Virus record (IMG/VR): IMGVR_UViG_3300017928_000003
Coordinates: 1 to 46,988 of that record
From: a virus
Direction: 5' to 3' (one strand)
DNA: 46,988 bases
Below the pieces are notes generated by a model. The model had not been told where the DNA came from. It did not search any database and worked only from the letters and a program-made list of their open reading frames with translations. This document shows, piece after piece, positions 137 through 40,619 of the stretch. A program made the translations under genes and the position numbers. Within the stretch, counting starts at the first letter, position 1; each line of letters opens with the position of its first letter.

Positions 137-973
137 ATGCATTATATTTATAGAATTACTAATACGGTTAATGGAAAAGTTTATATTGGTCAAACCAACA
201 ACCCACCCCTACGATGGTCGCAACACAAGTCTAATGCTAAATATGATAGAGGACATCAAGTTATTACCCGAGCTATCACTAAATATGGAGCTAATGTTTT
301 TGAGTTTGAGGTTATAGCTACTTGTCGCACACAAGATGATGTTGATTTTGTTGAAGAGCAAGTAATACAGGAATACGATAGTCGTAATCCAGAAAAAGGA
401 TATAATGTAGATGTTGGCGGGAACACTTCGCCAAGAACACCAGAGATTGTAGCAAAAATATCTGCTGCATTAAAAGAACACTATCAGTATAATGAACATT
501 TTCTTAAAGGAAAAATTCTTCCAGAAGAATGGAAAGAGAATATGTCCAAAGCTGCTATGGGTAAGCCCGGCACTAATACTGGAAAAACTTTTGATGATGA
601 GTGGAAAAATAAAATCTCTAAATCACATGCCGGGAAAGAACAAAAATCAAGAAGACGATTTTCAGAAGAAATAGAAAAAGAGATATGTAGATTGTATACA
701 ATGGATAAATTATCTACTTACTCTTTAGGAAAGAAATTTGAAGTTCAAAGAACTACAATAGCAGACATTTTGAGAAGACACAACATAGAAACTAGGCAAT
801 CAAATTATACTGGTCATTCTAATAACTGTAATATATTTACTCTTGAACAGGAATTAGAAATATGCAGATTATATCAAGAGGGAAATATCTCTAGAACTGA
901 ATTATATAAAAGATTTGGTTGCGGTAAAACTACTATTAGAGATATCTTGTTAAGACATAACATCAAACTATAA
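137..973 (+). CDS. GIY-YIG homing endonuclease with NUMOD3 and two HTH modules
   Basis: A free-standing homing endonuclease, 278 aa. The nuclease domain is at about residues 1-95: Y3-I4-Y5 and V15-Y16-I17-G18 form the GIY-YIG signature, R26 is the expected catalytic arginine, E73 or E74 the metal ligand, and N90 lies in the usual GYN motif. NUMOD3-like DNA-binding segments (SKAAMGK, SKSHAGK) follow at about 105-165. Two similar helix-turn-helix modules (about 175-220 and 235-278) each contain EICRLY, a TTI segment and LRRHNI or LLRHNI. The SD AGGAGA is at 127-132. Family knowledge: such enzymes cut a cognate site in a related genome and are copied into it. It ends 10 bases before the next gene, so its target may be that gene's 5' side (inference). 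Confidence 0.93.
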   Translation: MHYIYRITNTVNGKVYIGQTNNPPLRWSQHKSNAKYDRGHQVITRAITKYGANVFEFEVIATCRTQDDVDFVEEQVIQEYDSRNPEKGYNVDVGGNTSPRTPEIVAKISAALKEHYQYNEHFLKGKILPEEWKENMSKAAMGKPGTNTGKTFDDEWKNKISKSHAGKEQKSRRRFSEEIEKEICRLYTMDKLSTYSLGKKFEVQRTTIADILRRHNIETRQSNYTGHSNNCNIFTLEQELEICRLYQEGNISRTELYKRFGCGKTTIRDILLRHNIKL

Positions 974-5227: not shown

Positions 5228-5247
5228 TCGTTGATATATTTGTGGTT

Positions 5248-5973
5248 ATGAGCCAAAAGCGCATTCAATGGAATACTCAATTATTTGTGGAACGGTCCGC
5301 CGTCATCCACAATGGCAAGTATAAATATCCAGAAACATATATTAATGCATTGACACCGATTGTAATTGAGTGTCCTATACATGGTCATTTTAAGCAGCAG
5401 CCACGACACCATTTAAACGGTCGTGGATGTCCAACATGTTTCCATGAAAAATCAAGAAGTACTATCGATGATTTTGTTGAAAAAGCAAATGAAATTCATA
5501 ATGGAAAATATACCTATCCTTGCAATTACATCAATTCTCGTACGTTAATAACTATTAGCTGTCCAATACATGGTTTGTTTGAGCAGAAGCCGCCTGTACA
5601 TTTGGAAGGAAAGGGGTGTCCTTCTTGCGGAGATATTGCGAGAAGCGAATTTATTATGCCAATTATTTCTAAAATGGAAATAGACTGGCTCGATTCTCTT
5701 GGAATACCGCAAGAATATCGTCAGGCATCGCTTAAAATTGGTAGGAAAATAATCAAGGCGGATGCTTTTGTCCCGCCTACTAATACAGTTTATGAATTTT
5801 ACGGTGACTATTGGCATGGCAACCCATTAAAATTTTCTTCTCATTCTATAAATTCTGTTAAGGATAAGACATTTGGTGAGTTGTACCAGGCTACCCTTGC
5901 TCGCGAGCAGCTTATTGTTCAGGCTGGCTATAAAATCATATCTATATGGGAATTAGACTGGAATAACCAATGA
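5248..5973 (+). CDS. EDxHD/Vsr-like homing endonuclease with paired zinc modules
   Basis: 241 aa. Two similar N-terminal modules (about 6-65 and 74-130) each carry IHNGKYxYP, a CPIHGxF segment and HLxGxGCPxC, giving two C-x2-H plus C-x2-C zinc-finger-like units as seen in phage DNA-binding endonuclease repeats. The C-terminal nuclease domain has KADAF (D172), then E183-F-Y-G-D187-Y-W-H190-G-N, matching the EDxHD family related to Vsr and restriction-type folds, and ends in the usual AGYKIISIWELDW. The ATG at 5248 is preferred over a GTG at 5242; neither has a strong SD. Its stop overlaps the next start (ATGA, 5970-5973), so the downstream gene depends on it or on its own internal SD. Confidence 0.85.
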   Translation: MSQKRIQWNTQLFVERSAVIHNGKYKYPETYINALTPIVIECPIHGHFKQQPRHHLNGRGCPTCFHEKSRSTIDDFVEKANEIHNGKYTYPCNYINSRTLITISCPIHGLFEQKPPVHLEGKGCPSCGDIARSEFIMPIISKMEIDWLDSLGIPQEYRQASLKIGRKIIKADAFVPPTNTVYEFYGDYWHGNPLKFSSHSINSVKDKTFGELYQATLAREQLIVQAGYKIISIWELDWNNQ

Positions 5974-6726: not shown

Positions 6727-8619
6727 ATGTCAAAAGAAAAGAAGCCTATCAGAGACCCGCATTCCAAGAGCACGTTACGTGATATCGTAATGAAGCCTAG
6801 TAGTGGCGTGTTTGATATGGCAGGGATTGAAAACCCAAATGAGTTAAATGAAAAAATCAAGAGGCTCATCAAGTTTTTTGAAGAGTATGGTATTGATTAT
6901 AATAAGTTAGACGAAGAAAATGTTACCAAGATTGCTTATCCTAACTATGATCAATATATGCACATTCCTGGTCAACATAATTTGAAGAGATGGTTAGAAA
7001 CAATTAGAAATATTTATGTTAGTGAGAAAAGTGGGCTAGATCGTGCTAATGCTGTTCGTCAAGCGACCACTGGTTGGAATTTAATGGAAACTTATGATTT
7101 CTTGAATTGGATGAAGTTCTATCAAGAAGGAGCTCACTTGAAATACAAAACAGCACAACTTTGGTATGAAAATGGTCAGCCAGGTTACTTTTTACAGATC
7201 AAACCAGATCCTACTAAACCAGAAGAGTCTGTAGTAGATCATCATGCTATTCGTGATACACAAGAAGACATCGAACGTCAGGAAGATAGGAAGCGTATCA
7301 TTGAGAAGCAACGTCAAAAGATTATCGGTCGTTTAGATTCTGCTGAAAAGTTATTACGCTCTCCTGAAGGACAAATGTTTGCTGGTCCTGAATTAGAAAA
7401 TCTTATGGAAGCTATTTATAGTTTGAAAAAGAGAGTGCAGTTAGTCAATAAACTCAGCACTTCTACTCGTTTGTATGAAGATATGATTGTGCGCGAAGGT
7501 AATGTTTTACGTCGTAAGGGTTTTATCAAAGCTGCCGAAGTACTATATTCGGTAGCTCAAGCTAATAATCCACCTCCTCCAGGTATTGGTAAACCGGGAC
7601 CTATTGAAGCATTACCGCAACCAGTTCCACCAGATGATCCATCTGGCGCTGGACATCCCGGTCTTCCCGGTACACTTCCATCTTTGGGACCGGGTATGCC
7701 ACAAGCTCCTAAGAGCCCACCTTCTACTAGCGAGACACAACCAGTCGACTTGAAGCCAGTTCCAGTACCAGATGGCACTATCGCTCAAGGACCGCCTTCT
7801 CCTATGCCTGAAAGTGTGCCCAAAGGAATCGCAGAATTTCTTGATCAGACCGAGACAGGCGGCAAGACTACCCCTGAGGAATTGGGCGCAGAGGACAATC
7901 TAGAAGTGCAGGACACTTTGGAAGTCGAAGATGATCAATTAATGGTAACAGAAGCTCAAATGGCACCACCAGGTCCAGTAGCAGAGGATGTTCCAATGAC
8001 CACGGCTCCCCGTCGTCTAAAGCCGTCTGTTTCACCGCCAGTCGCGGAGAAACTACTTGAAGTGACTGAAGATACTCCTCCAGCCAATGAAGCCGGGGTG
8101 GAACAAGCTGCCCCCGCAGCTAAGGATTTCGATCGTATTATCGATTCTGCTCTAGCCAATGTGACTGTCAATGATGTGGTAGCTAAACTGGAAGATATTG
8201 CCAAAATTTTCAAGACTAGAGAAATTCCTCGTCAATTAGCCATGGTAGATATGATGTTAGATAGTTTAAATTTGGCCTCTATGTTTCCTACTCTTTCCGA
8301 AGCCATCAATAAATCTCTCGAATCTAATAACTATGTCTCTACTCGTTTGGATGATATTATTGCTAGACTACGTGGAGCCATGGTTAGTAAAGAAGTGGAT
8401 CTCAAGGGAGGTAGCAATGCTCCTCGCGCTGGCAGTGTAGCCAAAAATTTACAAGATCAAGCCGATAAAGATGAAGCTCGTAAGAAGATGAGAAAAGACC
8501 AAGAGACCGCTGAACTAGAAGGTGGCGCTAAACCATCTCCTCAAGTAGAAATTGGCGAAGACCTAGGTGCTCAACCTCCAGCCGCTCCGGCTCCACCACC
8601 TCCACGCCCAGTAGGCTAA
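6727..8619 (+). CDS. Large Pro-rich virion protein, unknown role
   Basis: 630 aa with three parts. The N-terminal part (about 1-280) is helical with aromatic patches (DFLNWMKFYQEG) and ends in the short helical motif RRKGFIKAAEVLYSVAQA. The middle (about 280-470) is a long low-complexity Pro/Gly/acidic linker (PPPPG, PVPPDDPSG). A second helical domain follows at about 475-560 (VAKLEDIAKIFKTREIPRQL), then a charged and Pro-rich tail ending PAPPPPRPVG. The start follows the previous stop by 1 base. The same domain-linker-domain organisation appears in the proteins at 15986 and 29746. No enzyme motif is seen; a structural or scaffold role is inferred. Confidence 0.75.
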   Translation: MSKEKKPIRDPHSKSTLRDIVMKPSSGVFDMAGIENPNELNEKIKRLIKFFEEYGIDYNKLDEENVTKIAYPNYDQYMHIPGQHNLKRWLETIRNIYVSEKSGLDRANAVRQATTGWNLMETYDFLNWMKFYQEGAHLKYKTAQLWYENGQPGYFLQIKPDPTKPEESVVDHHAIRDTQEDIERQEDRKRIIEKQRQKIIGRLDSAEKLLRSPEGQMFAGPELENLMEAIYSLKKRVQLVNKLSTSTRLYEDMIVREGNVLRRKGFIKAAEVLYSVAQANNPPPPGIGKPGPIEALPQPVPPDDPSGAGHPGLPGTLPSLGPGMPQAPKSPPSTSETQPVDLKPVPVPDGTIAQGPPSPMPESVPKGIAEFLDQTETGGKTTPEELGAEDNLEVQDTLEVEDDQLMVTEAQMAPPGPVAEDVPMTTAPRRLKPSVSPPVAEKLLEVTEDTPPANEAGVEQAAPAAKDFDRIIDSALANVTVNDVVAKLEDIAKIFKTREIPRQLAMVDMMLDSLNLASMFPTLSEAINKSLESNNYVSTRLDDIIARLRGAMVSKEVDLKGGSNAPRAGSVAKNLQDQADKDEARKKMRKDQETAELEGGAKPSPQVEIGEDLGAQPPAAPAPPPPRPVG

Positions 8620-8633
8620 ATCAAAGCAAATGA

Positions 8634-10352
8634 ATGAAACTACGCGAACTACTTCAACAATTAGTGGCAGTTCAAAAAGCGATAGGCGCCTCCACGCCCT
8701 ATATCACTGGAGGAACACCTCGCGATAAGTTTATGAATCGATTAGATAATGTAGCCGATATTGATATCACCACTGGTGATAAAACGGTAGATTATCTGTC
8801 GCAAGAATTTGCTATTCAATTACGTAAGAAATACAACGTCACCCGAAAGACTATGGACGATGGACATAGTACTATCTTCATTGGTAATTTGAAGGTAGAT
8901 TTCTCTTCTAATTTCATTGTTAATGATATAGAATCTTATTTACAAAAAATGGGAATTACTAATCCCACCGATCTACAAAAAGAAATGTTTAGTAGGGATT
9001 TTACTTGTAATACACTTTTACTAACTGTAGATTTAAAAAAGCTATTAGATCCGACCAAGCGCGGTTTTCGTGACATTAGGGAGAAGAAAATAAAGACTTG
9101 TCTTGCTCCAGAAATTACATTAACCTCTAATAGAAATAGGGTGATTAGATCTGTCTATTTAGCTTGCAAGTTGGGTTTTGAAGTGGATAAATCTATTATC
9201 GATTTTGTGCGCCAAAATCCACAGACAGTTAAAATCTCCACTGAAAAGGTAATGAATGAGAAATTGAATCAAGCTTTCGAAAAAGATGGAGATAAAGCCG
9301 CTAAACTCATCACGGAAATGGGTTTATGGAGTCTAATTCCTATCACCGAGAAAGTTTACCCTTACTATATGAAACAAATTAAAGGAAGTGTAAAAGCTCG
9401 TGCCGCTCTCTTCAATCGAATTGTTAAACAAGCTGACGATGAGAATGACGGACCTAATTTCGATTACGGTAAAGGGTTGTATTCCAATATGGGTAAATAC
9501 AAGAGTGTTAAAGATTTCGAAGAGCATGCCGACAAAGGTCCGAGCGCTTTCTTTGCTGATGACAATGAAGATCATATGATGCCGCCCAAAGAACATGGAA
9601 CCAAAATCTATGATTGGAAGAATAGTCCGTATCAAGGTACGCCAAAAAAACCAATCAAGGACAAGCATAAGTCCGATGATAATGACTTGGGCACCGGCTT
9701 CTACGAAAACTTGGAACACTATCAAAGTGTTAGAGATTTCATCGAGCATACTCCATTAGGACGCGACCACGGTGCTAAAATAAAGCCAGAATGGGCGCGA
9801 GCTAAGGACGTCAATCATATCGATTTCCCGGTAGACGAAGATATCAATCATGACAGCCTGATTAGACCGGAAGAAGGTCAGTATCAGCCACCCAGACTAG
9901 TGGGTCCGTCTGGCACTGATGATCGAACCGTGCAACCTAGCGATACCGGTTTTGATAGCCCACAAATCGAATTTACCTCTCCACAAATTGCTGGCGAGCA
10001 TAGCTATACACCATTGGACGATTTCGATGGTAGGTCTAGTGATGCCCTCAATTTTGGTCGAGATTATGATGACGAATCTGCTCCTGTGGGTCGTACCTGG
10101 GATGAAGCTTTCGTCGATGATTTAGAAGCCGAGGTGCGGGAAAAGGAATGGGATTTAGATAGGTTAGCAGCTAAATATGACAATTTAGACGACATGGATA
10201 TGTTATCTCCTGCCGAAACTGAAATCTATGGATTACCGGATGGAGTAGATCCGGAAGCTAAAGATGGTGCTCAAACTATCCAAACTGAAAACCCTTTTAC
10301 AAATACTCTTGATATGGGTCGTCAAATGTATGAAGATAAGTGGAACATTTAA
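8634..10352 (+). CDS. Diverged class II CCA/poly(A) polymerase-family nucleotidyltransferase
   Basis: 572 aa. The N-terminal about 190 residues are a recognisable class II tRNA-nucleotidyltransferase/poly(A) polymerase head: G26-G27-T-P-R30-D31, catalytic D42-I-D44 in ADIDITTGD, and S120-R121-D122-F123-T124. Motif D, normally EDxxR and used to choose ATP/CTP, reads S165-N166-R-N-R169 followed by the normal VIRSVYLACKLGF. The acidic pair is lost, so nucleotide choice is probably changed. Instead of a tRNA-binding tail, residues about 270-572 are acidic and Pro-rich with a repeated element (LYSNMGKYKSVKDFEEH near 282, FYENLEHYQSVRDFIEH near 354). It lies among virion genes, 14 bases after its neighbour. 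Substrate unknown; it may be virion-packaged (inference). Confidence 0.85.
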   Translation: MKLRELLQQLVAVQKAIGASTPYITGGTPRDKFMNRLDNVADIDITTGDKTVDYLSQEFAIQLRKKYNVTRKTMDDGHSTIFIGNLKVDFSSNFIVNDIESYLQKMGITNPTDLQKEMFSRDFTCNTLLLTVDLKKLLDPTKRGFRDIREKKIKTCLAPEITLTSNRNRVIRSVYLACKLGFEVDKSIIDFVRQNPQTVKISTEKVMNEKLNQAFEKDGDKAAKLITEMGLWSLIPITEKVYPYYMKQIKGSVKARAALFNRIVKQADDENDGPNFDYGKGLYSNMGKYKSVKDFEEHADKGPSAFFADDNEDHMMPPKEHGTKIYDWKNSPYQGTPKKPIKDKHKSDDNDLGTGFYENLEHYQSVRDFIEHTPLGRDHGAKIKPEWARAKDVNHIDFPVDEDINHDSLIRPEEGQYQPPRLVGPSGTDDRTVQPSDTGFDSPQIEFTSPQIAGEHSYTPLDDFDGRSSDALNFGRDYDDESAPVGRTWDEAFVDDLEAEVREKEWDLDRLAAKYDNLDDMDMLSPAETEIYGLPDGVDPEAKDGAQTIQTENPFTNTLDMGRQMYEDKWNI

Positions 10353-10418: not shown

Positions 10419-11369
10419 ATGTCATTACAGTCCACCGCTCAAGAACAGCTTTTTGTCGTAGATCCAACAGCGATTACGCCGTTGGAGGTGTCTGTTCCGC
10501 TCAATGAGGGCGAAATGGGTTCCCTAGGGCTCAGTGGAGATGTTTCTCCTGAGGAAATGGCGGGCGCTCCCGCTCTAGAAGTGCATGAGCCAGTAGACAA
10601 CGTAGAAATTGTCGTTGAAGAACTCCCAGGCGCCCCAGCTGGCACCAAGGATCCTGAGCCAATGTTGGAAGTCAGCGAGCCAGGTATACAGGTGGATGAG
10701 AAGTCAGCCGCCGATGATCAGGATGCCAAGAAGTCCAACAAGAACGAAAGATGGGATTGGGCTTCTAAAGGACCACACGGATTCGTGGGGTGGGTACAAG
10801 AGAAGATTAGTAGTGTACCCAAGCACTCTGGCTACGACTCTGCCGGATTAGAGCGAGCTATGGCTTACATGGAGAAGCTAGATAGTGAAATCTCTAAGGC
10901 TATGAGAATGGACTTGGACGGCGAACTAGACGCCAATAAGATTGAAGAGGTTCGCTCCAAATTGGATGAGGGTATTGCTCGTTTGCAAGATCGTCTCGAC
11001 AAAGTGAAAGAATCTAAGAAGTCCTCTCGCAAGCGCAAAAAGTCTGCCGATGAAGCTTCTGAAGGTTTGGTCAAAGAGGCCCAGAAAATTTTGGGTGTGC
11101 AAGGCGTGTACATTATGGCTCCTCTGCTGATTTCGGGTATTGCCAGGATTTGTATTAATGGTTGCATTTCAGCCGGTCATGACATAAGTGATTTGTATCT
11201 TCGTCAAGTTAAGCAATGGAAATTGTCCGATCGTGAACAATTTGAGTTGAAGCAATTATTATTCGATATGGGGTTCCCGATGCCATATGATAGAAGCGTA
11301 ATGGCTAATGAAGATTTCGATCCCGGTTCTGCGGATAACTATGAATTAATGCAACAATTCAAGGGTTAA
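10419..11369 (+). CDS. Hypothetical virion/assembly protein with coiled coil
   Basis: 316 aa. Residues 1-95 are acidic and probably disordered (PLEVSVPLNEGEMG, VVEELPGAPAG), ending in the motif AADDQDAKK that is shared with the proteins at 21291 and 24989. An aromatic segment follows (RWDWASKGPHGFVGWVQEK, about 109-128), then a charged coiled coil (about 150-195, KIEEVRSKLDEGIARLQDR) with a Lys/Arg-rich tail (KKSSRKRKK). The C-terminal domain has a hydrophobic helix (VYIMAPLLISGIARICING) that may be buried or membrane-seeking. SD TAGAGGT. Function unknown. Confidence 0.75.
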   Translation: MSLQSTAQEQLFVVDPTAITPLEVSVPLNEGEMGSLGLSGDVSPEEMAGAPALEVHEPVDNVEIVVEELPGAPAGTKDPEPMLEVSEPGIQVDEKSAADDQDAKKSNKNERWDWASKGPHGFVGWVQEKISSVPKHSGYDSAGLERAMAYMEKLDSEISKAMRMDLDGELDANKIEEVRSKLDEGIARLQDRLDKVKESKKSSRKRKKSADEASEGLVKEAQKILGVQGVYIMAPLLISGIARICINGCISAGHDISDLYLRQVKQWKLSDREQFELKQLLFDMGFPMPYDRSVMANEDFDPGSADNYELMQQFKG

Positions 11370-12052: not shown

Positions 12053-13930
12053 ATGACAACATCTGAGAAAGATATTTTTCTAAAATTGAAAAGACAGCTG
12101 CTTATGCTTGATCCGGTCTCTTTTTGCCAGACCTATCTCAATTTAGATGGAAAGCCTTTTACTCTAAGTGGTAATGGATACAAGCCTTTCTGTGACATTT
12201 ATCGATATATTGGTATCAAGGCTTTAGAACGTAACTCTAAACCCGTTATTATGGTTAAGGGTCGTCAGGTTGGCGCCACCACTATGGCTAGTGCCTTAGA
12301 AATGTATTTCATGGGCTCTGGTATGTTTGGTAACGGCGAAAGACCACCCATTCGCGTTATTCACACTTTTCCACAATTGGAACTGGCAGCGGCGTATTCT
12401 AAGACCAAGCTCAACCAAATGATCATTACCTCTCTCGTCCCGGAGGGCGTGGAACAAAAGAGCGGCTCCAAACCGAAGTCCTACATGCAACTCTTGTTGG
12501 ACCAAAGCGCTTCAGCCAGCGAGTCCTTACATTTTAAGCAGTTCGCGGGTGGTAATCACTTATGGGTAGAATCTACTGGCGTTGATGCAGACCGTATCAT
12601 GGGTCGTACCGCTGATGTTATCTTTTTTGATGAAGTACAGAAGACCACTGATTTGGCATTAGGTAATGCTCTCAAGATTTTAACTACTGCTAAGTATGGT
12701 GAGCCATCTAAAGGGGTGAGAATTTATTTTGGTACGCCTCGTCGTAAAGGTTCTGATTTCCACAAGATGTGGCAGAACTCTTCTCAACAATATTATTACT
12801 TAGGTTGCGAAAACTGCGAAAAACACTTCCCACTCTACACTCCTGGCTCTAATAATTGGGAAAAAATCTGGATTCACGGCTACACTGTCAAATGTCCACT
12901 CTGTGGACATGAACAAAACAAATTAGAAGCTGCCGAGCGCGGCAAGTGGGTTGCCTTTAAAGATCCTAATGATGATGATTGTAACATGATTGGTTTCCAT
13001 ATCAATCAACTTTACATGCCGATGTTTACTCGTGAAGCTATTGAGAATGAAAAGCCGGGTAAGCACCCCATTAATACCGAACGTGTTTTTATGAATGAAG
13101 TTTTGGGAGAATTCTTTCAAGGAGATTCTAGTCCCATTACTCCTGACGAAGTGCGTCTTTTTTGTGCCGATCATGAAAGAAAGTTTTCTCCTAGTATCGT
13201 TCCAAGTAAGGGTTTAATGCAGCAGATTGCCGTGTTGGGTATCGATTATGGTGCCCGTTCTGATTTGGAACAATTAGCTCAACCAGATAAGATTACCAGT
13301 CGCGGTCAATCCTATAGTACTGCAGTGGTGCTACTGTCTAAAGGTCCCGGTTTACTATCTATTGAATTTGCGATGAAATTCAAAAGAAACGATCCTGCTC
13401 ATAAGAAAGGCATCATAGACCAGTTGATTAGACAATACAATATTCAACTAGCAGTAGGAGATATTGGTTACTCTAATGACTTTTCTCAAGACCTACAAAA
13501 TGTCTATGGAGATAAGTATTTGGTTTCTCGTGCTCATCCGTCAGTCAATGAACATGTTAAGTTTAGACATGATACTTTTCCAAAAGAAATTCTTTTCGAA
13601 AGAGACTATTATATTGCTCAGCTCTATGAACAAATGAAAAAAGGAATGATTAGATTTCCTTATGGTGATTATGAAAGAATTGCTTGGTTGATAGAACATT
13701 GTTGTAGTATGGAGATTAAACCTTCTATTTCTAGAACTGGTGGCGATCCTAGTGTCCATTATGTCAAAGGTGGTACACCAAATGATGGTTTCATGGCTTT
13801 ACTTAACGCTTATATTGCTTATAAGTTCTTGGTAACCAGAGGGTTTACTCACAATAACCCTTTACTACAGAATGAAAGAAACATTAATAAACCAATGGTT
13901 TTGAGTGGATATGTGTCCAGAAAATTCTAA
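12053..13930 (+). CDS. terL: Terminase large subunit (ATPase and nuclease)
   Basis: 625 aa. The DNA-packaging motor subunit, which docks on the portal, hydrolyses ATP to pump DNA and cuts the concatemer. ATPase: Walker A-like K69-G-R-Q-V-G-A-T-T77 and Walker B with acidic pair D193-E194 in ADVIFFDEVQ. A four-cysteine zinc-finger-like insert (C252-x2-C255 and C281-x2-C284) sits between the domains, as in GpA-type terminases. Nuclease: D398 in GIDYG, D470 in AVGDIGY and D578 in PNDGF supply the RNase H-like acidic triad. All key residues are present. The start codon has no clear SD; the previous gene ends 8 bases upstream, so translation is probably coupled. The portal follows after 74 bases. 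Confidence 0.95.
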   Translation: MTTSEKDIFLKLKRQLLMLDPVSFCQTYLNLDGKPFTLSGNGYKPFCDIYRYIGIKALERNSKPVIMVKGRQVGATTMASALEMYFMGSGMFGNGERPPIRVIHTFPQLELAAAYSKTKLNQMIITSLVPEGVEQKSGSKPKSYMQLLLDQSASASESLHFKQFAGGNHLWVESTGVDADRIMGRTADVIFFDEVQKTTDLALGNALKILTTAKYGEPSKGVRIYFGTPRRKGSDFHKMWQNSSQQYYYLGCENCEKHFPLYTPGSNNWEKIWIHGYTVKCPLCGHEQNKLEAAERGKWVAFKDPNDDDCNMIGFHINQLYMPMFTREAIENEKPGKHPINTERVFMNEVLGEFFQGDSSPITPDEVRLFCADHERKFSPSIVPSKGLMQQIAVLGIDYGARSDLEQLAQPDKITSRGQSYSTAVVLLSKGPGLLSIEFAMKFKRNDPAHKKGIIDQLIRQYNIQLAVGDIGYSNDFSQDLQNVYGDKYLVSRAHPSVNEHVKFRHDTFPKEILFERDYYIAQLYEQMKKGMIRFPYGDYERIAWLIEHCCSMEIKPSISRTGGDPSVHYVKGGTPNDGFMALLNAYIAYKFLVTRGFTHNNPLLQNERNINKPMVLSGYVSRKF

Positions 13931-14004: not shown

Positions 14005-15900
14005 ATGGCTAGTAATAAACCCCCTAAACAATGGCAGGGACCATCAAAATCAGACCAATATATGGATAAGCGTTCAACTGTTCCACAAGTTAGCGCTATT
14101 ATGGCCCAAGGTGTTTCCAAAGAAAGAAGAGCGATTCTTTCTGATGAAGTTGATCAGGGTGCATTTCGTGATGGTTCTGGACCTACCTACAGTCAGAGAG
14201 TAGCAGAAAATCTTGAAACTGCTAACGCCCGTGTCGTGGCATCTGTTGGTGGATTCAAAAAGAACGCTCAAGTAGTTAGTAGTGTGGGCGGTATGTTCCG
14301 TGGTATTCACGGAGATTCTGTCAAACAAACTCCTGAAGTATATTCTCCTCTGTGGCTCAATTCCAACCTTAATCTACCCCGTGATAGGGCTACTATCAAT
14401 GCTTGGTGTCGTAGCTTTTATGCTTTGAATCCTTTCGTACATAATGCTATCAATCTTCACAGTACTTACCCAATTAGTAAGCTAAGCATTAAGTGTCCTA
14501 ATAAAGATATTGAGAAGTTCTTCAACGATATGATTGAAGAAATCGATTTGATGAACATATGTGTACAAATCGCTCAGGAGTACTGGTTACTCGGTGAAGC
14601 CTTTGTATATTCTGAACTAGATGAAAGCAAAGGTAAGTGGAGTCGTTTGCTGATTCAGAACCCAGACTTTATGGTGGTTAAGCGTACCGTAGTGGCTAAT
14701 GAACCTATTATCCAATTGCGTCCAGATCCTAATCTACAAAAGATTATCTTCTCTAACCGTCCTAGTGATATTGAACAGCGCAAACAATTAAACCAACATA
14801 TCATTGATTCGGTGCGTCGTGGTGAAAATATTCCTCTAGACAACTTTCATGTTTCTCATTTGGCTCGTCGTATCAGTCCTTATGAAATCAGAGGTACTGG
14901 ACTACCAGTCTGTATTTTTCGTCAATTGATGTTATTTGATAAGTTACGCGAATCCAAATATGCTCAAGCTGATAATATGATCAATCCACTCACCATCGTT
15001 AAGATTGGTTCGGCTGATTATAAACCTACTTTCGCCGACTTAGAAGCTTGGAGAAGTACTTTCGAAGAAGCTCAATATGATAAGGATTTCAAGATTTTTA
15101 CTCATGAAGGCGTAGATGTTACTAGAGTAGGTTATGGTCAAGGTATCTACGATATTTCTGGTGATATTACTCAGTTAGTTAAAGAAATCTACGTGGGACT
15201 TCAGGTTCCACCGGTGTTGATGGATGGTGGTGCCGATACTACTTACGCCAATGGTGGTGTAGCTTTAGATGTTTTGCGTCAGCGTTACATGCAGTTTCGT
15301 AATATGATGTCCCAGTGGTTGAAACGCAAAATCTTTGCTCCTATCTCCAAAATTCAAGGATTCTACGATTATTCCGGTGGAGAGAAGCAGCTCATCGTTC
15401 CAGAGATTGACTGGAATCATATGTCCTTGTTCGATGCCGGAGATTACATTAATAGCATCGTCACTTTAACTCAAGGCACTGATGAAGCTAAGAGAGTTTC
15501 TTTGCATACCCTATATCGTTCGATCGGTTTGGAATTTGAAGATGAAACTCGTAAAATTCGCAAGGAAGCTATCCAAAACGCCATTGCCAAAAAGGAAAAG
15601 GCAGCTTTGGAGGCTATGGACCTCAACGCTCTTCGTGCTCTGGATGAGGAAGATGAAATTCCGGAACCAGAAAAGAAGCCAGGACAAGAAGAACAGCCAG
15701 TTCCGGGCGAAACTCCAGGTGGCGCACCACCTCCAGGTGGTATGCCAGATTTGGGATTGCCGAGTGGTCCGCCTCCAGGTCCGCTTCCAGGTGGAGGAGC
15801 CGCAGCGCTTCCTGCGGCACCTCCAGGTGGCGAGGCGCCCCCGGGCGGTGGGACACCCCCAGCCGCTCCGCCAGTAGGCGGACCACCGCCCGGTCCATAA
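14005..15900 (+). CDS. Portal protein with Gly/Pro-rich C-terminal tail
   Basis: 631 aa. The dodecameric portal forms the DNA entry/exit vertex and docks TerL. Support: position right after TerL; a hydrophobic/aromatic clip region (NAWCRSFYALNPFVHNAIN, about 132-150); a mixed alpha/beta core; DKLRESKYAQADNMINPLT; and EIYVGLQVPPVLMDGG, which resembles portal stem/wing motifs (LGVPPxLLG type). Residues about 550-631 are extreme low complexity (repeated PPGG, PGGG, PPPG), raising local GC. This tail is unusual for portals and could be a flexible contact with scaffold or internal proteins (inference). The SD GAGGAT is 4 bases before the ATG. Confidence 0.88.
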   Translation: MASNKPPKQWQGPSKSDQYMDKRSTVPQVSAIMAQGVSKERRAILSDEVDQGAFRDGSGPTYSQRVAENLETANARVVASVGGFKKNAQVVSSVGGMFRGIHGDSVKQTPEVYSPLWLNSNLNLPRDRATINAWCRSFYALNPFVHNAINLHSTYPISKLSIKCPNKDIEKFFNDMIEEIDLMNICVQIAQEYWLLGEAFVYSELDESKGKWSRLLIQNPDFMVVKRTVVANEPIIQLRPDPNLQKIIFSNRPSDIEQRKQLNQHIIDSVRRGENIPLDNFHVSHLARRISPYEIRGTGLPVCIFRQLMLFDKLRESKYAQADNMINPLTIVKIGSADYKPTFADLEAWRSTFEEAQYDKDFKIFTHEGVDVTRVGYGQGIYDISGDITQLVKEIYVGLQVPPVLMDGGADTTYANGGVALDVLRQRYMQFRNMMSQWLKRKIFAPISKIQGFYDYSGGEKQLIVPEIDWNHMSLFDAGDYINSIVTLTQGTDEAKRVSLHTLYRSIGLEFEDETRKIRKEAIQNAIAKKEKAALEAMDLNALRALDEEDEIPEPEKKPGQEEQPVPGETPGGAPPPGGMPDLGLPSGPPPGPLPGGGAAALPAAPPGGEAPPGGGTPPAAPPVGGPPPGP

Positions 15901-21290: not shown

Positions 21291-24200
21291 ATGCCATTTA
21301 ACAAATACGGTGAAACTGTTGAGATTAGAATTGAAAACACGGAATCGTGTATTCCAGCAGTGAGTCCTGAGATTTTGGAAAACTTCCAGAAGTTTGCTAC
21401 CAATCTGAAAAAGATTGCGCCAAAGGCAGAAGACTTCTTGTACTTTTCTGCGGTTATGATGCACGCTGCTGAAGCAGCCGCCCTCAATGACGATGGCACC
21501 CCAAGAATGACCGCCAAGGGCGAAGCCGCCCAAGTGAGCTGGGATAAAAGCAATAATACTTGGAAATGGGTATCTAATGACCCTAACATTAAGCCATATA
21601 AGAATTCTAATGGCGACATTTTCCCCGAAGAAGAATTAGTTAAAGCACATAAAAAGTGGGTTCACAAGCCTCTTTGCATCGATCATAAGTCCAGTTCGGT
21701 AGATCATGTAAGAGGTTTTATTGTTGATACATATTATGATCGCAATCTCAAGCGAGTGATTGCGTTATGCGCTTTGGACAAGGCAGGCTATCCTCAATTA
21801 GCTAGAAACGTCTCTACGGGCATTTCTAACTGCGTCTCCATGGGTACGGCTGTGGGTCGTGCTATCTGCACCGATTGCTCCCGTGTGGCTCGTACCGAAC
21901 AAGATTTTTGTTCTCATATGAAGAATAAGTCTTGCTACGGTGAAATCAATATAGACTTGAATCCAATAGAATTATCAATAGTAATGAATGGAGCTGATCA
22001 AAGAGCTACCATTAAGCATGTTCTAGCTGCTGCCAATACCCTCAATACTTATGTTGAGAATAAGCAAAAGGAATTAGCCAAATTAGCTGATCTGAGTTTT
22101 TCAGCTAGTTTGATCGTAAATGACCCACAAGGTATTGAAGGTGGTGGTTCATCTACCTTCCAGGTAAATGGAAATAATATAGATAAATTCAAGGCCGATC
22201 TTGATGAAGCCTTCCAAAGATTGACCGAAATAGCCAATGCTGCAAAAAAATCTGAAAAAGATACTAATCTTTCAGCATTTAATCAATCGTCGGGCTCCAT
22301 CTCTATGGATGAAAGTGCCGAAACAGATTCTGGATTGGCTCTCCAAACTCCGCAAACCGTTAGGTTTGCATCTGCTGATGAGGCAGGTATCAGTGAGCTT
22401 CGTGAAGTTACAGCTGCTATCGAAGCCAAACTCAACCAAATGAAACACAGCTTGGATAAGTTAGCACAAACTTCTATAAAAACACAAGAGGAAACAATGA
22501 CTGGATCAAACGAACTGAATAAGAAGGGTTACTACCAGGGAGCCGGCGGCGTGAATGAGCCAACTCCAGGTCAAGCAAAATATCCTAAGGACCCCCTCAA
22601 CGAACAACTTCGTGAGAATGAGGATAAACAAATGGTAGGTCAACCACCTTTCCCAGGTGTGGGCCCAGTTGATGGAATGCACCCTTCTCCGGGTTCTGCG
22701 GATCCATCTGATGAACTACAACGTAAGAAGATGTTAGCCCGTGCCGAAGCTGAAGAGCGCGCATTGCGTCGTCAAGCTATCGTCAACTTGGCTAAGGAAG
22801 CCTTGCAGAATAAGGAAGCTTATTTCCAAGGTGGCGGTGGTGTTAACGAACCCACTCCAAACAAGCCAAAGTATCCTAAGGACAAGCTCAACGAAGAGTT
22901 GCGTGAGTACGAAGATAAGCAGATGGTTGGTCAACCACCTTTCCCGGGCGTCGGTCCAGTCGATGGCTTACATCCTTCTCCTTCTTCCGCTGATCCTAAG
23001 GACGAGTTGAAGCGTAAACAAATGCTCGCTCGTGCTAATGCTCTCACTGGTCGTTTTACCAAAGCTGCTAATGAAGACGGCACTCTCAACCAGGGCAACA
23101 GTGCTTGGGAAATCTTCCTCGGCGAGAAGCTCTTGTTAACTGCTTCGGTTAATGATTTATCCGCTGGTCGTCCAGAACTATTTTACGATCAAATTGCTAC
23201 CAAGCCATTCGGTCTACAATTGATTGAAAAGATTAGGACTAAGGGCGCTGCTAGCGTAGCAAATCTAGTCAAAAAGGGTCAAGTTCCACCTCCTCCAGCA
23301 GGTGGTGATGTAGGTGCTCCACCAGCAGGTGATATGGGAGCTCCAGCAGGTGGTCCTCCAGAGGATACAGGTAAGTCTGGTGATCCAAAGCAAACTGCCA
23401 TGGAACTAGCTGAAAAGGTTAGAGATTTATCTTCTGATCTTGTGGAAGCTGTTCGTGCTCTAACTGGTGAACAAGCTGAAATGGGTGCAGGTGATGAAGG
23501 TTCTAGCGCCCCTCCAACCGCAGGTGGTGCTCCAGCTATGGCTGATGACAGCAAAATGTCCTCTGCCTCTTTTAGCGCCACTACTTTAAATACTCTCAGA
23601 CGAGAACTAAATAGCGCGTTAACTCACGCTATGAAGGAAGCCGTTGCAGAACTCAACGATCACAAACAAGAACTTGATATGATCGTCGGTTTGTTCGACA
23701 AGGGTGCCGTAGTTGATTCTAACAAGGACACCGTGAGCGCTCTCGCCGACGATGCTTTTAATGAGACTAAGGCTGCTGTTGCTGATGGCTTTAAGCTAAT
23801 GAATGCTTTCGTCAAGTACGCTCGTGGTACTGAAGCTATTGTCAAGCGCGCTGAGATTGAGTCAGAATTACAAGCACTAGGTGCTGATGAAGGAGATGAT
23901 ATGAACGATGCCAAGAAGTCGAAGGACTCCTCTAAGGACAGTCACTCCGCTGACGCCGGTGACTTGATGGGTCTAATTAACGACACTAATGCAGATTTAG
24001 ATGCTGTTCACAGCCTAATGAGCGATGACAACGATCATGTTGGTGAAGAGCCACATGACGAAGCCATGGAACATCTAGAGGGCTTAGCCGCACTAGATGA
24101 CGAAAATGGTGCCGTTGAAGTCAAGACTCCAGAACAAGCCGCCCAAGTAACTAAGGCTAACCCAGCAGCTAGTGTAGTGGTTCAAGCTTCTTTGGATACC

Positions 24201-24959
24201 CGAGAAGGTCGTTCCGCACTACGCGCCAAGTTAGCTGCCGATGCTCTTGGTAAGGAAGATGATGGAGAAGTTCAAGATGCTTCCAAGATTCAGTTCAGCG
24301 ATATGCTAGATCAAGCTGACGGTCTTGCTGATGGTCAGACCCACTTAGATGTCAAGCCGTCCGATAGCCTCGGATTGGTGGAAACTCTACCAGAAGAAAA
24401 CAAGGCTATGTTGGAAGTCGCTAAGGCTCCACCAAAGGTTCGTAAGGAAGCCGAAGCTATTCAAAAGCTTGTTTCCGAAGGTTCCTTGGATCCAGCCGAT
24501 CTAGATGCTTTAGTAGCAGAAGGTTTGGACAAGGATGCAGTGGCATACTGGAAGAAGTATTACAGCCAAACTGATGGCGGTTCTGAATTCGCCAGTGAAT
24601 TGGTTAAGGAGCATGTGAAGGCTCAACTCGAAGAAGAGTTCAACAAGTTCCGTGTTAAGATTGCCAGAGCTTACGAGCTAGCCTATGATATGGCTGAACG
24701 TGGTATGTGCAACGGCGACAAGGGCTCTATCTCCCTACAAGTTGAGGAAATCATGAAGTTTGATGATCCAAGCTTCGAATCTCTTAAGAGAGTGGTTGCC
24801 AGAAACCCAGTAGTCGGTATGAAGAAGCAAGCTGGACGCCTTCCACTAGTTGGCGTACGTGAGAACGACGAGCTATCCTCCACTGCCAGTGTTGAAGAAC
24901 AAGGTACGGAATATGATAGACTATCCTCTATGTTCGGTAACAAAAAGGGCTCATTCTAA
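21291..24959 (+). CDS. Capsid maturation protease fused to scaffold-like protein
   Basis: 1222 aa. The N-terminal about 250 residues look like a prohead serine protease: H132 (LCIDHKSS), S183 (NCVSMG) and the hallmark PIELSIVMNGADQRA with E227. A zinc-like insert C193-x2-C196-x10-C207-x-H209 sits between. Next is a helical linker, then two tandem repeats of about 97 aa (starting near Y414 and Y511; each has GGVNEPTP, KYPKD, EDKQMVGQPPFPGVGPVDG). A Gly/Pro-rich stretch and long acidic helical regions follow (about 660-1160), including NDAKKSKDSSKDSHSADAGD, typical of scaffolds. Family knowledge: protease and scaffold are often adjacent or fused and are removed by self-cleavage. Over 1200 aa is unusually long. 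Catalytic residues are inferred by motif only. Confidence 0.82.
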   Translation: MPFNKYGETVEIRIENTESCIPAVSPEILENFQKFATNLKKIAPKAEDFLYFSAVMMHAAEAAALNDDGTPRMTAKGEAAQVSWDKSNNTWKWVSNDPNIKPYKNSNGDIFPEEELVKAHKKWVHKPLCIDHKSSSVDHVRGFIVDTYYDRNLKRVIALCALDKAGYPQLARNVSTGISNCVSMGTAVGRAICTDCSRVARTEQDFCSHMKNKSCYGEINIDLNPIELSIVMNGADQRATIKHVLAAANTLNTYVENKQKELAKLADLSFSASLIVNDPQGIEGGGSSTFQVNGNNIDKFKADLDEAFQRLTEIANAAKKSEKDTNLSAFNQSSGSISMDESAETDSGLALQTPQTVRFASADEAGISELREVTAAIEAKLNQMKHSLDKLAQTSIKTQEETMTGSNELNKKGYYQGAGGVNEPTPGQAKYPKDPLNEQLRENEDKQMVGQPPFPGVGPVDGMHPSPGSADPSDELQRKKMLARAEAEERALRRQAIVNLAKEALQNKEAYFQGGGGVNEPTPNKPKYPKDKLNEELREYEDKQMVGQPPFPGVGPVDGLHPSPSSADPKDELKRKQMLARANALTGRFTKAANEDGTLNQGNSAWEIFLGEKLLLTASVNDLSAGRPELFYDQIATKPFGLQLIEKIRTKGAASVANLVKKGQVPPPPAGGDVGAPPAGDMGAPAGGPPEDTGKSGDPKQTAMELAEKVRDLSSDLVEAVRALTGEQAEMGAGDEGSSAPPTAGGAPAMADDSKMSSASFSATTLNTLRRELNSALTHAMKEAVAELNDHKQELDMIVGLFDKGAVVDSNKDTVSALADDAFNETKAAVADGFKLMNAFVKYARGTEAIVKRAEIESELQALGADEGDDMNDAKKSKDSSKDSHSADAGDLMGLINDTNADLDAVHSLMSDDNDHVGEEPHDEAMEHLEGLAALDDENGAVEVKTPEQAAQVTKANPAASVVVQASLDTREGRSALRAKLAADALGKEDDGEVQDASKIQFSDMLDQADGLADGQTHLDVKPSDSLGLVETLPEENKAMLEVAKAPPKVRKEAEAIQKLVSEGSLDPADLDALVAEGLDKDAVAYWKKYYSQTDGGSEFASELVKEHVKAQLEEEFNKFRVKIARAYELAYDMAERGMCNGDKGSISLQVEEIMKFDDPSFESLKRVVARNPVVGMKKQAGRLPLVGVRENDELSSTASVEEQGTEYDRLSSMFGNKKGSF

Positions 24960-24988: not shown

Positions 24989-25720
24989 ATGAAAAACAAC
25001 AGTGTATCAGATTTCGTAGCTGCATCCATGGATGCAGCTCTGAAGAGCCAAGAATACAAGACCCTCTTTGGTACTCAGTATAAGTATGCTGACGACCAAA
25101 ATGATGCCAAGAAAGAAACCATGTGTGCCAAACACGGTGAAATGGATTCTTGCATGGCTGATGACAATGACGCCAAGAAGAAGGACTCCTCTAAAGATTC
25201 TTCCAGTGCCTCGGATCAAAATGATGCTCGTAAGAGCAAGGATTCCTCATCTTCCTCCTCTTCTTCTAGCAAGGATTCTTCCTCTGCTGATGATCAGGCA
25301 GCTAAAGCTAAGAAGGATTCTAAGGATTCCAGTAGCGCAGATGATCAAGATGCCAAGAAAAAGGATTCTAAGGACTCTAGCTCTGCTGATGATTCCGAGG
25401 AAAAGGTTTCCAGCGCTTTCGATGTGGCTATTGACAGCTTGCTAACTGCTTCTGCTGCTTTAGATTCTGTTGGTCTCGGACGTGGTTCCGCCCTCAGCTT
25501 GAAGCTAGCTTCCTTGGTTGTTGAAGCCAAGAAGAAGGACAAGGACTCTAAGAAGTCTTCTAAGGACTCCAAGAAGAGTGATTCTAACTCCGCTAAGGAC
25601 AAGAAGCACAGCAAGGATTCCAAGGATTCTAAGAAGAGCGATTCCCATTCCGCTAAGGATAAGAAGAGCGATTCTAAGAAGTCTGACTCTAAGGACTCTA
25701 AGAAGTCTTCTAAGAAGTAA
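24989..25720 (+). CDS. Lys/Ser/Asp-rich disordered protein, possible internal head protein
   Basis: 243 aa, extreme low complexity. A short ordered N-terminus (SDFVAASMDAALKSQEYKTL) is followed by repeats of DDQxDAKK and KDSSSADD. A brief hydrophobic helix (about 140-177, FDVAIDSLLTASAALDSV) precedes a Lys/Ser/Asp tail of KKSD, KDSK and SAKDKK units ending KKSSKK. The tail resembles histone H1-like or polyampholyte tails, so DNA condensation in the head or scaffold contact is possible (inference). The DDxxDAKK motif also occurs in the proteins at 10419 and 21291. SD AGGAAATAGGA precedes the ATG. C-rich codons suggest strong expression. Confidence 0.8.
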   Translation: MKNNSVSDFVAASMDAALKSQEYKTLFGTQYKYADDQNDAKKETMCAKHGEMDSCMADDNDAKKKDSSKDSSSASDQNDARKSKDSSSSSSSSSKDSSSADDQAAKAKKDSKDSSSADDQDAKKKDSKDSSSADDSEEKVSSAFDVAIDSLLTASAALDSVGLGRGSALSLKLASLVVEAKKKDKDSKKSSKDSKKSDSNSAKDKKHSKDSKDSKKSDSHSAKDKKSDSKKSDSKDSKKSSKK

Positions 25721-35412: not shown

Positions 35413-36426
35413 ATGAATATGTTCAATAACCAAGGCGCAGTAAACGCCTCATCCCTTAAGGATGCACTACAGACTCTCGTCAAGTATGCTGCTATTCTCG
35501 AAGAGAACACCCCAGCAAATCAAGGCTTGGCAGGTCAACCATCTTTGTCTGATGACAAGCGTGATGAGTTGATTTCTCGTGCCATTATGACCCAAGACGG
35601 TAAAATTGCTCTAGCTCAGGCTATGGCAAACCCAATCCGTAGAAACCTAGATTATCATGGTATCGCTCGTCGTGCCTTGGTGGTCGATCCATTGCCACAA
35701 GGTGCTATGCCAACTTACGATAGAGATATCGATGTTGCCGCTGTAGTTATCTCCAGCAACGGTACTGGTCCAGAATCCAGAGTATTCGGTGACAGAGTAG
35801 TTGTCCCTGAATTCGAAGTTTACGCAAATCCAACCGTTAGAATCGCCGAAGTCAAGCGTCGTAGATTCAACGTTATCGATAGAGCAGTCCAGAAGGCTCG
35901 TCAAGAAATCATGGCTCAAGAAGACGCAAACGTTTTCGCAGCTTTGGATGCAGCCGCTTCTGTGGAAAATACTCTAACCGACATCGCTGATGCCGGTCTT
36001 CTCAAGAGAGACTTGGTTGAAATCAAGCAACAAGTTGATCGTTGGGACTTAGTTACTACCAAGTACTTCATGAACATCAATGAGTTCACTGACATCCTCA
36101 AGTGGGGTTCTGGTGGTGGACAAGGCGTTGGTGGTGGAGACTTCGATCCAGTAACCATGCGTGAAGTTCTACAAACTGGTCTTTACGCTCATATTTGGGG
36201 TACTGACATTATGGTAAGCAAGATTGTTCCTCCTGGAACGATATACGGCGTAGCAGATCCTGAATTCGTCGGAGTCATGCCAATTCGTCAAGACATTGAA
36301 GTCTTGCCAGCAGACGAACCAAAGCAATTGAAGCTTGGATGGGTCGTCAGTGAAATAATTGGTATAGCGATAGTTAACCCACGTAGTGTTGCGGCCGGTA
36401 GGAAATCGGTTGTCATCGGGGCTTGA
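35413..36426 (+). CDS. Major capsid protein (HK97-type fold expected)
   Basis: 337 aa. Evidence: ARRALVVDPLPQGAMPTYDR, PESRVFGDRVVVPEFEVYAN and NPTVRIAEVKRRRFNVIDRA are the pattern of a capsid family of large tailed phages, with a long helix following (QKARQEIMAQEDANVFAALD) and a C-terminal WGTDIMVSKIVPPGTIYGVA. Position, codon bias (GTT, AAC, TTC, CGT), its own leader and a strong terminator all agree. It is about the usual length. Residues 1-75 are helical and could be a short delta-domain. A LAGLIDADG endonuclease follows. The fold is inferred from family resemblance. Confidence 0.88.
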   Translation: MNMFNNQGAVNASSLKDALQTLVKYAAILEENTPANQGLAGQPSLSDDKRDELISRAIMTQDGKIALAQAMANPIRRNLDYHGIARRALVVDPLPQGAMPTYDRDIDVAAVVISSNGTGPESRVFGDRVVVPEFEVYANPTVRIAEVKRRRFNVIDRAVQKARQEIMAQEDANVFAALDAAASVENTLTDIADAGLLKRDLVEIKQQVDRWDLVTTKYFMNINEFTDILKWGSGGGQGVGGGDFDPVTMREVLQTGLYAHIWGTDIMVSKIVPPGTIYGVADPEFVGVMPIRQDIEVLPADEPKQLKLGWVVSEIIGIAIVNPRSVAAGRKSVVIGA

Positions 36427-39322: not shown

Positions 39323-40561
39323 TTAACGTAATACCGCTTGTCGAAGCATTTCTAACAGATATTCTTTATCATTATGCTCGGGATGTTCCAAAATTTCCTG
39401 ATAGCAAACATCTAAAAGTGCCTTCATTCTGGGACCGGGGGTCATTCCCGCTTTTAGAAGATCGTCTCCGTTAATTTGCATAGCCTTACGAGAATGTACC
39501 GTGGTATCTTGGTATTTTGCCAGCAGCGTTTCCGCAGGCACGTCCATGGCTCTGGTTAACTTTATAAATTCATTATAGGTATGCTCCCATGGGTCGGGGG
39601 CTTCATTCTTGAACTTTGCTATAAACTTCCTGTAGGGAAACGCTCCGTCTTCTAGGTGCTGAAAATCTAACAACCTTTGCAGTAGGAAAGCAACTCTCTT
39701 GATGGATTTGTTTGAGAATTTAAGATCAATAAGCTCCTGCTCCACTAGTAAGTGTGGTAACTTGTTGTAGAGTAAGGCTAAACGGGTTTCTAACTCACCC
39801 GCACATTGATTCAGTGACGGAATTAGGGGAAGTTGTCGTCCCATCAAGCATGGACAGACAATATCCAAGGCTCCGGACATGTGTAGGTACATAACTCCAG
39901 CATGAGGGCGTGAAGTCATAAGAGTTTTGCTTAGTTCGTCATTGATACGTTCTTTGGAAACCTTCTTCAAGGTTTCCAAAGAATCTATCATTCCCTGAAA
40001 GGTTTCATCATGGATAGCGAAGCCAAAACGTGCAGCGAAACGAGCTGCTCGCATAATACGTAAACCGTCTTCTTGGAATCGTTTTTGTGGAACCCCCACA
40101 GCACGAATGAGACCAATCTTAATGTCTTCGTATCCGTGAAAAGGATCCACGCCCACATTGCTTACTGGATCGAAGGCTATGGCGTTGATGGTAAAATCTC
40201 GACGAGCCAAATCTTCCGTGATGTTTGTAACAAATTGGACCGATGCCGGACGACGTCCATCTCGATATTCACCTTCTACTCGAAAAGTGGTGACTTCGAA
40301 ATGATTTTCCACGCCTTCGCCCATGCATACCGTCACTGTGCCATGTTGCAGTCCCGTAGGAATGGTTCTTTCAAACAGTTGGATGACTTGTTCAGGCGAA
40401 GCGTTAGTAGTAATGTCCCAATCTTTGGGCTGTAGTCCAAGATGTAGGTCTCGTACGCACCCTCCTACGATGTAGGCTTGAAAACCTGGATTCTGTAGAA
40501 TGTTACAAATTTCGATAGCTTTTGGATGAATTAGGGGCTGAAAAAGACGATTATGTGACAT
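39323..40561 (-). CDS. cca: CCA tRNA nucleotidyltransferase (class II)
   Basis: 412 aa from ATG 40561 on the minus strand. Adds or repairs the 3' CCA of tRNAs. Every core motif is present: G33-G34-C-V-R37-D38; catalytic D47-W-D49-I-T-T; R120-R121-D122-F123-T124; and the base-selecting E164-D165-x-x-R168, followed by RAARFAARFGF. Length matches bacterial CCA enzymes. In-frame GTG 40615 and ATG 40573 are alternative starts, but none of the three has an SD. A TTGACA-N16-TATGTT promoter places the transcript start almost at ATG 40561, favouring a leaderless mRNA. It is opposite to the fibre operon and ends 2 bases from the gene at 38100. Probably a phage auxiliary gene sustaining tRNA supply. Confidence 0.93.
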   Translation of the reverse strand: MSHNRLFQPLIHPKAIEICNILQNPGFQAYIVGGCVRDLHLGLQPKDWDITTNASPEQVIQLFERTIPTGLQHGTVTVCMGEGVENHFEVTTFRVEGEYRDGRRPASVQFVTNITEDLARRDFTINAIAFDPVSNVGVDPFHGYEDIKIGLIRAVGVPQKRFQEDGLRIMRAARFAARFGFAIHDETFQGMIDSLETLKKVSKERINDELSKTLMTSRPHAGVMYLHMSGALDIVCPCLMGRQLPLIPSLNQCAGELETRLALLYNKLPHLLVEQELIDLKFSNKSIKRVAFLLQRLLDFQHLEDGAFPYRKFIAKFKNEAPDPWEHTYNEFIKLTRAMDVPAETLLAKYQDTTVHSRKAMQINGDDLLKAGMTPGPRMKALLDVCYQEILEHPEHNDKEYLLEMLRQAVLR

Positions 40562-40568
40562 ATGCGGT

Positions 40569-40596
40569 AACATAAAGTTTAAAATTTGGGTGTCAA
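40569..40596 (-). promoter_or_regulatory. Sigma70 promoter for the CCA gene
   Basis: On the minus strand TTGACA (40596-40591) is 16 bases before TATGTT (40574-40569). The -35 is perfect, the -10 is 4 of 6. Transcription would start at about 40562, next to ATG 40561. It gives the gene host-type expression independent of the late plus-strand operon. Confidence 0.6.
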
Positions 40597-40619
40597 GCCC
40601 TTTCTTCAGCCGCACTTAG

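Follow-up and report, generated by a model that had tools for sequence, protein, structure and literature searches.

A class II nucleotidyltransferase with an altered base-selection motif in the head/packaging module of uncultivated large phages

The viral DNA analysed here (IMG/VR record IMGVR_UViG_3300017928_000003, 46,988 nucleotides, hereafter the window) carries in its head/packaging module an intact gene whose product is a class II nucleotidyltransferase by fold and, by the features tested, neither a CCA-adding enzyme nor a bacterial poly(A) polymerase I (PcnB). A preliminary description of the sequence had proposed that the base-selection motif of this protein is altered, with SNxxR replacing EDxxR. 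This was borne out, as none of 117 distinct homologues carried the ED pair, and an altered motif shared by so many homologues is not a chance feature of one sequence. The head-module enzyme is a real and apparently undescribed variant of the class II nucleotidyltransferases.

Predicted fold and altered motifs

The gene, its catalytic unit and the motifs considered below are as follows.
8634..10352, + strand: open reading frame (572 aa, intact, ATG start)
8634..9389, + strand: class II nucleotidyltransferase head and neck unit, residues 1–252 (PolyA_pol match; stand-alone ORF in most relatives; AF2 model)
8709..8726, + strand: GGTPRD, residues 26–31, part of motif A (G26, G27 and R30 invariant; D31 in 113 of 117 distinct homologues)
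8757..8765, + strand: DID metal-binding pair, D42 and D44 (residues 42–44; 117 of 117)
8898..8900, + strand: D89, third catalytic carboxylate position, in DFSSNF (117 of 117)
8991..9011, + strand: motif B, SRDFTCN, residues 120–126 (canonical RRDFTxN; S120 in 117 of 117)
9126..9149, + strand: altered motif D, SNRNRVIR, residues 165–172 (canonical EDxxRxxR; R169 and R172 in 117 of 117)

The ORF matched Pfam PolyA_pol (E = 1.9e-11; 45.9 bits against a curated cut-off of 23), a head domain also matched by all 46 aligned family members at E ≤ 0.01, and its residues 23–239 matched PHROG 2244 (E = 5.1e-13), one of the phage tRNA nucleotidyltransferase families. The head and neck unit is basic (pI 9.3) and was modelled by AF2 with a pLDDT of 92.9. 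Overlaying this predicted structure on a class II CCA enzyme, a check suggested in the preliminary description, gave the class II head and neck fold, the best structural match being the T. maritima CCA enzyme 3h3a (VIA Z 19.9 over 227 residues). Class II CCA-, CC- or A-adding enzymes and poly(A) polymerase took the top 27 places among PDB entries, with Z falling from 19.9 to 13.9, and FAM46 came next (9.9); the predicted class II head and neck fold is assigned with high confidence. No Pfam match to RNAbd or NucTran2_2 was found in the enzyme, and the body and tail domains are absent, the stand-alone relatives ending at 251–257 aa. Its scores fell below the cut-offs of the curated equivalog PRK13299 (50 bits; cut-off 290) and of the PcnB family TIGR01942 (33.4 bits; cut-off 305.65), and no anti-phage defence model of PADLOC-DB 2.0.0 matched it.

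In a profile alignment to solved class II enzymes, D42, D44 and D89 map onto the three catalytic carboxylates, and R169 aligns with the Arg that reads the base edge. D89 lies opposite the E of LEFATA in the A. aeolicus A-adding enzyme, taken as the catalytic Glu74, and R172 and D122 fall on its base-stacking pair, Arg155 and Asp105, the numbering of PMC3925840 having been counted by hand from this alignment. These carboxylates, together with R30, R121, D122, N126, R169 and R172, are invariant in all 117 homologues. The head motifs had been described as intact. This holds for GGxxRD, DID and RDFT (residues 121–124), whereas motif B is itself changed, Ser replacing the first Arg of canonical RRDFT in every homologue at a place where canonical phage enzymes have RRD. 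Since motif B is involved in ribose binding (PMC7730189), the choice of sugar may differ as well.

The S165–N166 pair lies opposite E–D without gaps when motif D is aligned with EDPVRILR. Position 165 is variable across the 117 homologues (S, Y, T, N, A, V, H, D, E, F, R or I), and position 166 is N in 78, D in 30 and another residue in nine. When the first 73 homologues were compared with 23 canonical enzymes, all of the former read x-(N/S/H/Y/K)-x-N-R and all of the latter (E/D)-D-x-L-R. A search for homologues that keep EDxxR found none at this genomic position; those with D166 keep D without E, and phage CCA enzymes elsewhere keep (E/D)DxxR. In class II enzymes, the amino group of C or A donates a hydrogen bond to the Asp of motif D, and N3/O2 or N1 is contacted by the Arg (PMC3925840); a passage of the same paper, citing Cho et al. 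2007, relates that mutated motif D residues led to the addition of other nucleotides. In the human enzyme, only the first position tolerated change (to D, G or Q); under selection for A or CCA addition, D could not be replaced (PMC11784652). An Asn at the D position could accept or donate a hydrogen bond, which would permit a relaxed or U/G-leaning choice; because it could still accept one, some use of C and A is possible. Judged from these residues, it is reasonable to suppose that the head-module enzyme adds another nucleotide.

Residue 168 follows residue 166, being R or K in 29 of the 30 members with D166 and N in 85 of the other 87, and an NHSNR branch within the D lineage also fits this pairing. 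With only three well-supported independent pairs, two of them concordant, the covariation is suggestive, not significant, and might reflect a salt bridge instead of base reading. The D-bearing members (YDPRR, VDPRR, SDNRR and DDPKR) form sister and basal lineages, and D166 changes state five times on the best tree, at least three of these on well-supported branches. E was probably lost across the whole family. D was later replaced by N in the clade of the window, and elsewhere in the tree by N, H or S, in most cases together with a corresponding change at the second residue after it.

Conservation within the head/packaging module

The enzyme gene lies among the following genes, and a transglycosylase-domain protein is also encoded downstream of it in the head/packaging block.
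6727..8619, + strand: module gene of 630 aa upstream of the enzyme (conserved in this position)
10419..11369, + strand: downstream conserved module gene, 316 aa (order conserved)
12053..13930, + strand: terminase large subunit (PHROG 675, E = 8e-58)
14005..15900, + strand: portal protein (PHROG 16240, E = 1.6e-51)
21291..24959, + strand: head maturation protease-like protein (PHROG 18299, E = 5.5e-12)
35413..36426, + strand: major head protein (PHROG 2522, E = 1e-78)
39323..40615, − strand: separate canonical CCA tRNA nucleotidyltransferase (NCBIfam PRK13299, 319.6 bits against a cut-off of 290; motif D EDGLR)

Searches with the protein, its alignment, a divergent alignment and the terminase yielded at least 117 distinct homologues, down to ca. 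33% identity to the enzyme of the window, from uncultivated large phages on contigs of up to 480 kb. The gene order of the window is conserved in the homologues that have flanking sequence. Furthermore, when loci were seeded with the terminase, which does not select for the enzyme, all 47 with upstream DNA exceeding 4 kb contained it, although some of these contigs are near-duplicates; the enzyme gene is therefore a core gene of this phage group. The head-module family is monophyletic with respect to 23 canonical phage and bacterial enzymes (SH-aLRT 100). A dN/dS of ca. 0.05 among pairs with usable divergence indicates purifying selection and, together with the residue invariance, rules out a pseudogene or decaying copy. 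Its place in the head operon speaks for co-regulation and not for presence in the virion.

No close protein match was found among 50,697 GenBank phage records. Matches in Lak, Aeromonas 65, Cosmo, Tunturi_5 and Atuin were rejected as relatives, being canonical (E/D)DxxR enzymes in other contexts. The terminase of the window was at most ca. 26% identical to GenBank phage records among the matches listed, and megablast with 24 kb of the window gave no match. A scan of genome contigs returned a single relative, on a contig of 383 kb (JAIXLO010000160.1) that had been placed in the bin of a Chitinophagales MAG and bears the head module described here; the contig is probably of phage origin, and its binning hints only weakly at a Bacteroidota host.

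Several other ORFs of the window (137–973, 42084–42725, 26800–27639 on the − strand, 36541–37380 and 5242–5973) resemble homing endonucleases or related mobile genes by eye, with GIY-YIG-like, LAGLIDADG-like and zinc-finger types represented; the types at 5242–5973 and 137–973 recur at other places in relatives. A 243 aa ORF at 24989–25720, consisting largely of KDSS/DSKK repeats, adjoins the head maturation protease-like gene.

The fused tail and its partner gene

The remainder of the ORF comprises the following features.
9390..10349, + strand: fused acidic, mostly disordered partner, residues 253–572 (separate overlapping ORF in most relatives; AF2 model)
9456..9527, + strand: first KYKSV element (NFDYGKGLYSNMGKYKSVKDFEEH), a conserved partner element in most homologues
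9681..9749, + strand: second KYKSV-like element (LGTGFYENLEHYQSVRDFIEH), a locally ordered helix in the AF2 model
10326..10349, + strand: conserved partner C-terminus MYEDKWNI, common to separate and fused partners

As first described, the tail is acidic (pI 4.5; 22% D/E and 7% P) and carries a repeated KYKSVKDFEEH-like element, as KYKSVKDFEEH at residues ca. 288–298 and HYQSVRDFIEH at ca. 362–372. The accompanying proposal that it stands in place of a tRNA-binding domain did not hold: in most relatives the enzyme ends before this region, and the partner is a separate, overlapping ORF that starts at an ATG inside the 3' end of the enzyme gene in another frame (MSVNKKGYFQGGGGVNEPTPG...) and ends in MYEDKWNI. 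The two genes were separate in 52 and fused in 20 of the 72 homologues scored, with at least seven changes of state on the best tree, two of them forced by well-supported branches, and by this reconstruction the fusion is derived and recurrent. In the nearest relatives of the window (L018 and L141), the genes are separate. The fusion in the window would have arisen by loss of the enzyme stop and of about the first 100 partner residues, including a first, basic KYKSV copy, so that the frame reads through. An assembly artefact was rejected, because three other contigs from different samples contain the same sequence and other fusions arose separately.

In the full-length AF2 model, residues 253–572 mostly have a pLDDT below 50, with a small helix at the second element. 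Since it is a separate gene in most relatives and mostly disordered in the model, the partner is best regarded as a dedicated companion of the enzyme and not as a tRNA-binding domain. The consensus of its element over 76 distinct copies is G-x-G-(L/W)-Y-x-N-M-x-K-Y-K-S-V-x-(D/E)-F, usually followed by Lys or Arg. The element is the sole C-terminal extension in four relatives (L085, L086, L265 and L290), and some relatives have it in a short downstream ORF. In eight large contigs it occurs once per genome, in the gene directly 3' of the enzyme, a pattern that leaves a general virion-protein tag unsupported. Such a dedicated partner would fit the anchoring to the head or tail structure that the preliminary description proposed for the tail. 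The N-terminus of the L086 portal protein (13993 onward) contains a TMYKSVSDFRKE stretch resembling the element, an exception seen in this relative only.

A different motif, (K)xAYFQGGGGVNEPTPGxxKYxxD, is present in two copies in the head maturation protease-like protein of the window (at about 22530 and 22821). In many relatives (L004–L014) a single copy opens the partner gene, and the fused partner of the window lacks it; the motif may be a shared docking or processing signal. Extra stretches at the enzyme/partner junction or within the partner were also seen in a few relatives, by eye resembling a metalloprotease with a HELIE motif in the partner gene of L011 and L012 and a J-domain in the L078 fusion, with a further stretch in the L171 fusion.

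Relation to known enzymes and proposed function

The class II CCA-, CC- and A-adding tRNA nucleotidyltransferases (T. maritima 3h3a, A. aeolicus 4wby/1vfg, G. stearothermophilus 1miv) have the head and neck fold in common with the head-module enzyme (Z 18–20) and share its GGxxRD, DxD, third carboxylate, RDFT, motif C region and xxRxxR. The head-module enzyme differs from them in lacking body and tail domains, in a motif D without ED, in SRDFT instead of RRDFT, and in its phage head-module site and dedicated partner. PcnB (3aql) has the same head and neck architecture (Z 14.7), but is larger, keeps EDxxR and has neither such a partner nor a phage context. Gp178 of Arthrobacter phage Atuin (243 aa) is likewise a phage-encoded, short class II enzyme of head and neck size, but it keeps EDALR and RRDFT, and nearby genes for RNA ligase and polynucleotide kinase place it in a setting of RNA repair. 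The giant Bacillus phage G, with a major head protein (gp27) 53.7% identical to that of the window, encodes another short, altered class II protein, gp199 (297 aa, annotated as a tRNA nucleotidyltransferase), but outside the head module and with motif D replaced differently, without the Arg (by eye). The gp199 gene (NC_023719, 136199–137092) lies four genes after a tail-fibre gene. Phage G also has a canonical enzyme at ca. 396 kb, and its head module contains no nucleotidyltransferase gene of the head-module type.

The RlaP and CCA-adding nucleotidyltransferases of jumbo phages are also polymerase-beta-like, but in the portions of PMC7824862 available they appear as RNA-repair enzymes working with RNA ligases or on tRNAs. 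CCA-adding enzymes are likewise reported from huge phages in the available text of PMC7162821, and these portions of the two surveys make no mention of a head-module nucleotidyltransferase class. No report of a nucleotidyltransferase in a phage head module was found in a literature search, most subscription journals lying outside its coverage.

We give about an even chance to the reading that the enzyme is a minimal class II nucleotidyltransferase, fixed in the head/packaging module and predicted to be competent, which adds nucleotides to a 3' end with a changed base choice and acts through its partner on a substrate not recognised in the manner of tRNA. This reading builds on the predicted fold, the residue conservation, the synteny, the two-gene origin of the tail and the purifying selection. 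The NTP would be bound between head and neck in the usual way, by the metal carboxylates D42/D44/D89, the stacking pair D122/R172 and the edge-reading R169. With Asn replacing the Asp that reads the amino group of C or A (S165–N166, together with N168), the Watson–Crick edge would be read differently, and nucleotide choice would be relaxed or U/G-leaning instead of strictly C/A. Lacking body and tail domains, the enzyme would not hold tRNA in the usual manner, which makes the KYKSV partner, adjacent or fused, the obvious candidate to supply substrate or location. Most likely, the enzyme would add one or a few nucleotides to a 3' end, and would do so late in infection, when heads are assembled or packaged.

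A tRNA end-processing role (addition of CCA, C or A to the tRNAs of the phage itself, with a partner or host protein binding the tRNA and the head-operon position incidental) appears unlikely, although the class II fold is compatible with it. Canonical CCA genes were found in ten of 19 phage records (one MAG was also searched) and in none of the other nine, four of which are of 394–452 kb; these records are fragments or of uncertain completeness, and such absences are weak. The best case for this role is made by three records of 433–452 kb (G004–G006), which have 41–58 tRNA genes and no canonical CCA gene found, and several phages of the clade have 41–65 tRNA genes. Moreover, 30 homologues keep D (xDxxR), and the human enzyme tolerates loss of E alone (PMC11784652). 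However, D is lost in the clade of the window, the body and tail domains are missing, and the enzyme was present in all of 18 records with 0 to 65 tRNA genes (Rfam being used only for these counts), including a 394 kb record with one weak tRNA (G008) and two with none (G014 and G016). A canonical enzyme also stands alongside it in the ten records and in the window itself, where the separate CCA gene had already been recognised (39323..40615, − strand). The preliminary description held that CCA addition to tRNA is unlikely to be its task, and the analysis agrees that this is improbable as a core role, because the canonical gene is optional, the enzyme occurs in records with 0–1 tRNA genes and D proved irreplaceable in the published selection (PMC11784652). 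Five of the contigs (G001, G002, G005, G010 and G011) carry 53–65 tRNA genes, close to the highest numbers reported from huge phages.

The head-module location in every relative and the altered base-reading and ribose motifs could also point to a nucleotide-binding structural or regulatory protein, which would serve head assembly as an NTP-holding sensor or scaffold and carry out no transfer. This is quite improbable, as a pure binder would have no need of the three catalytic carboxylates and the residues on the triphosphate side, none of which varies among the 117 homologues. About as improbable is modification of a protein, such as a head protein, or of a small molecule (NMPylation) instead of a nucleic acid 3' end. 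The polymerase-beta-like fold at large includes NMPylating enzymes, and both the absence of tRNA-binding domains and the head-module context would suit such a role, but the class II neck domain is kept and the nearest structural matches are all RNA 3'-end enzymes. The reading of a 3'-end-adding enzyme with changed base choice could be extended to a virion-associated, template-independent polymerase of U/G-leaning or relaxed choice, possibly with a changed sugar choice, tethered through KYKSV to the head/packaging machine and tagging packaged genome ends or injected or encapsidated RNA; this extension is speculative and, in our estimation, rather unlikely. If this is true, the enzyme would, as far as found, be without precedent in two respects, as a natural class II enzyme whose protein template has been rewritten and as a nucleotidyltransferase belonging to the core of a phage head module.

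Class II enzymes choose C and A by means of a two-residue protein template, and laboratory changes to it alter the nucleotide. The head-module family seemingly represents a natural experiment of this kind, in which E was lost family-wide, D was kept in sister lineages, and D was replaced in several branches with a matching change in a neighbour. As the enzymes in this series look active from their conserved residues, they could serve for testing how nucleotide choice is encoded. For large phages, the findings point to a step of nucleotide addition linked to the assembly of the head or to packaging.
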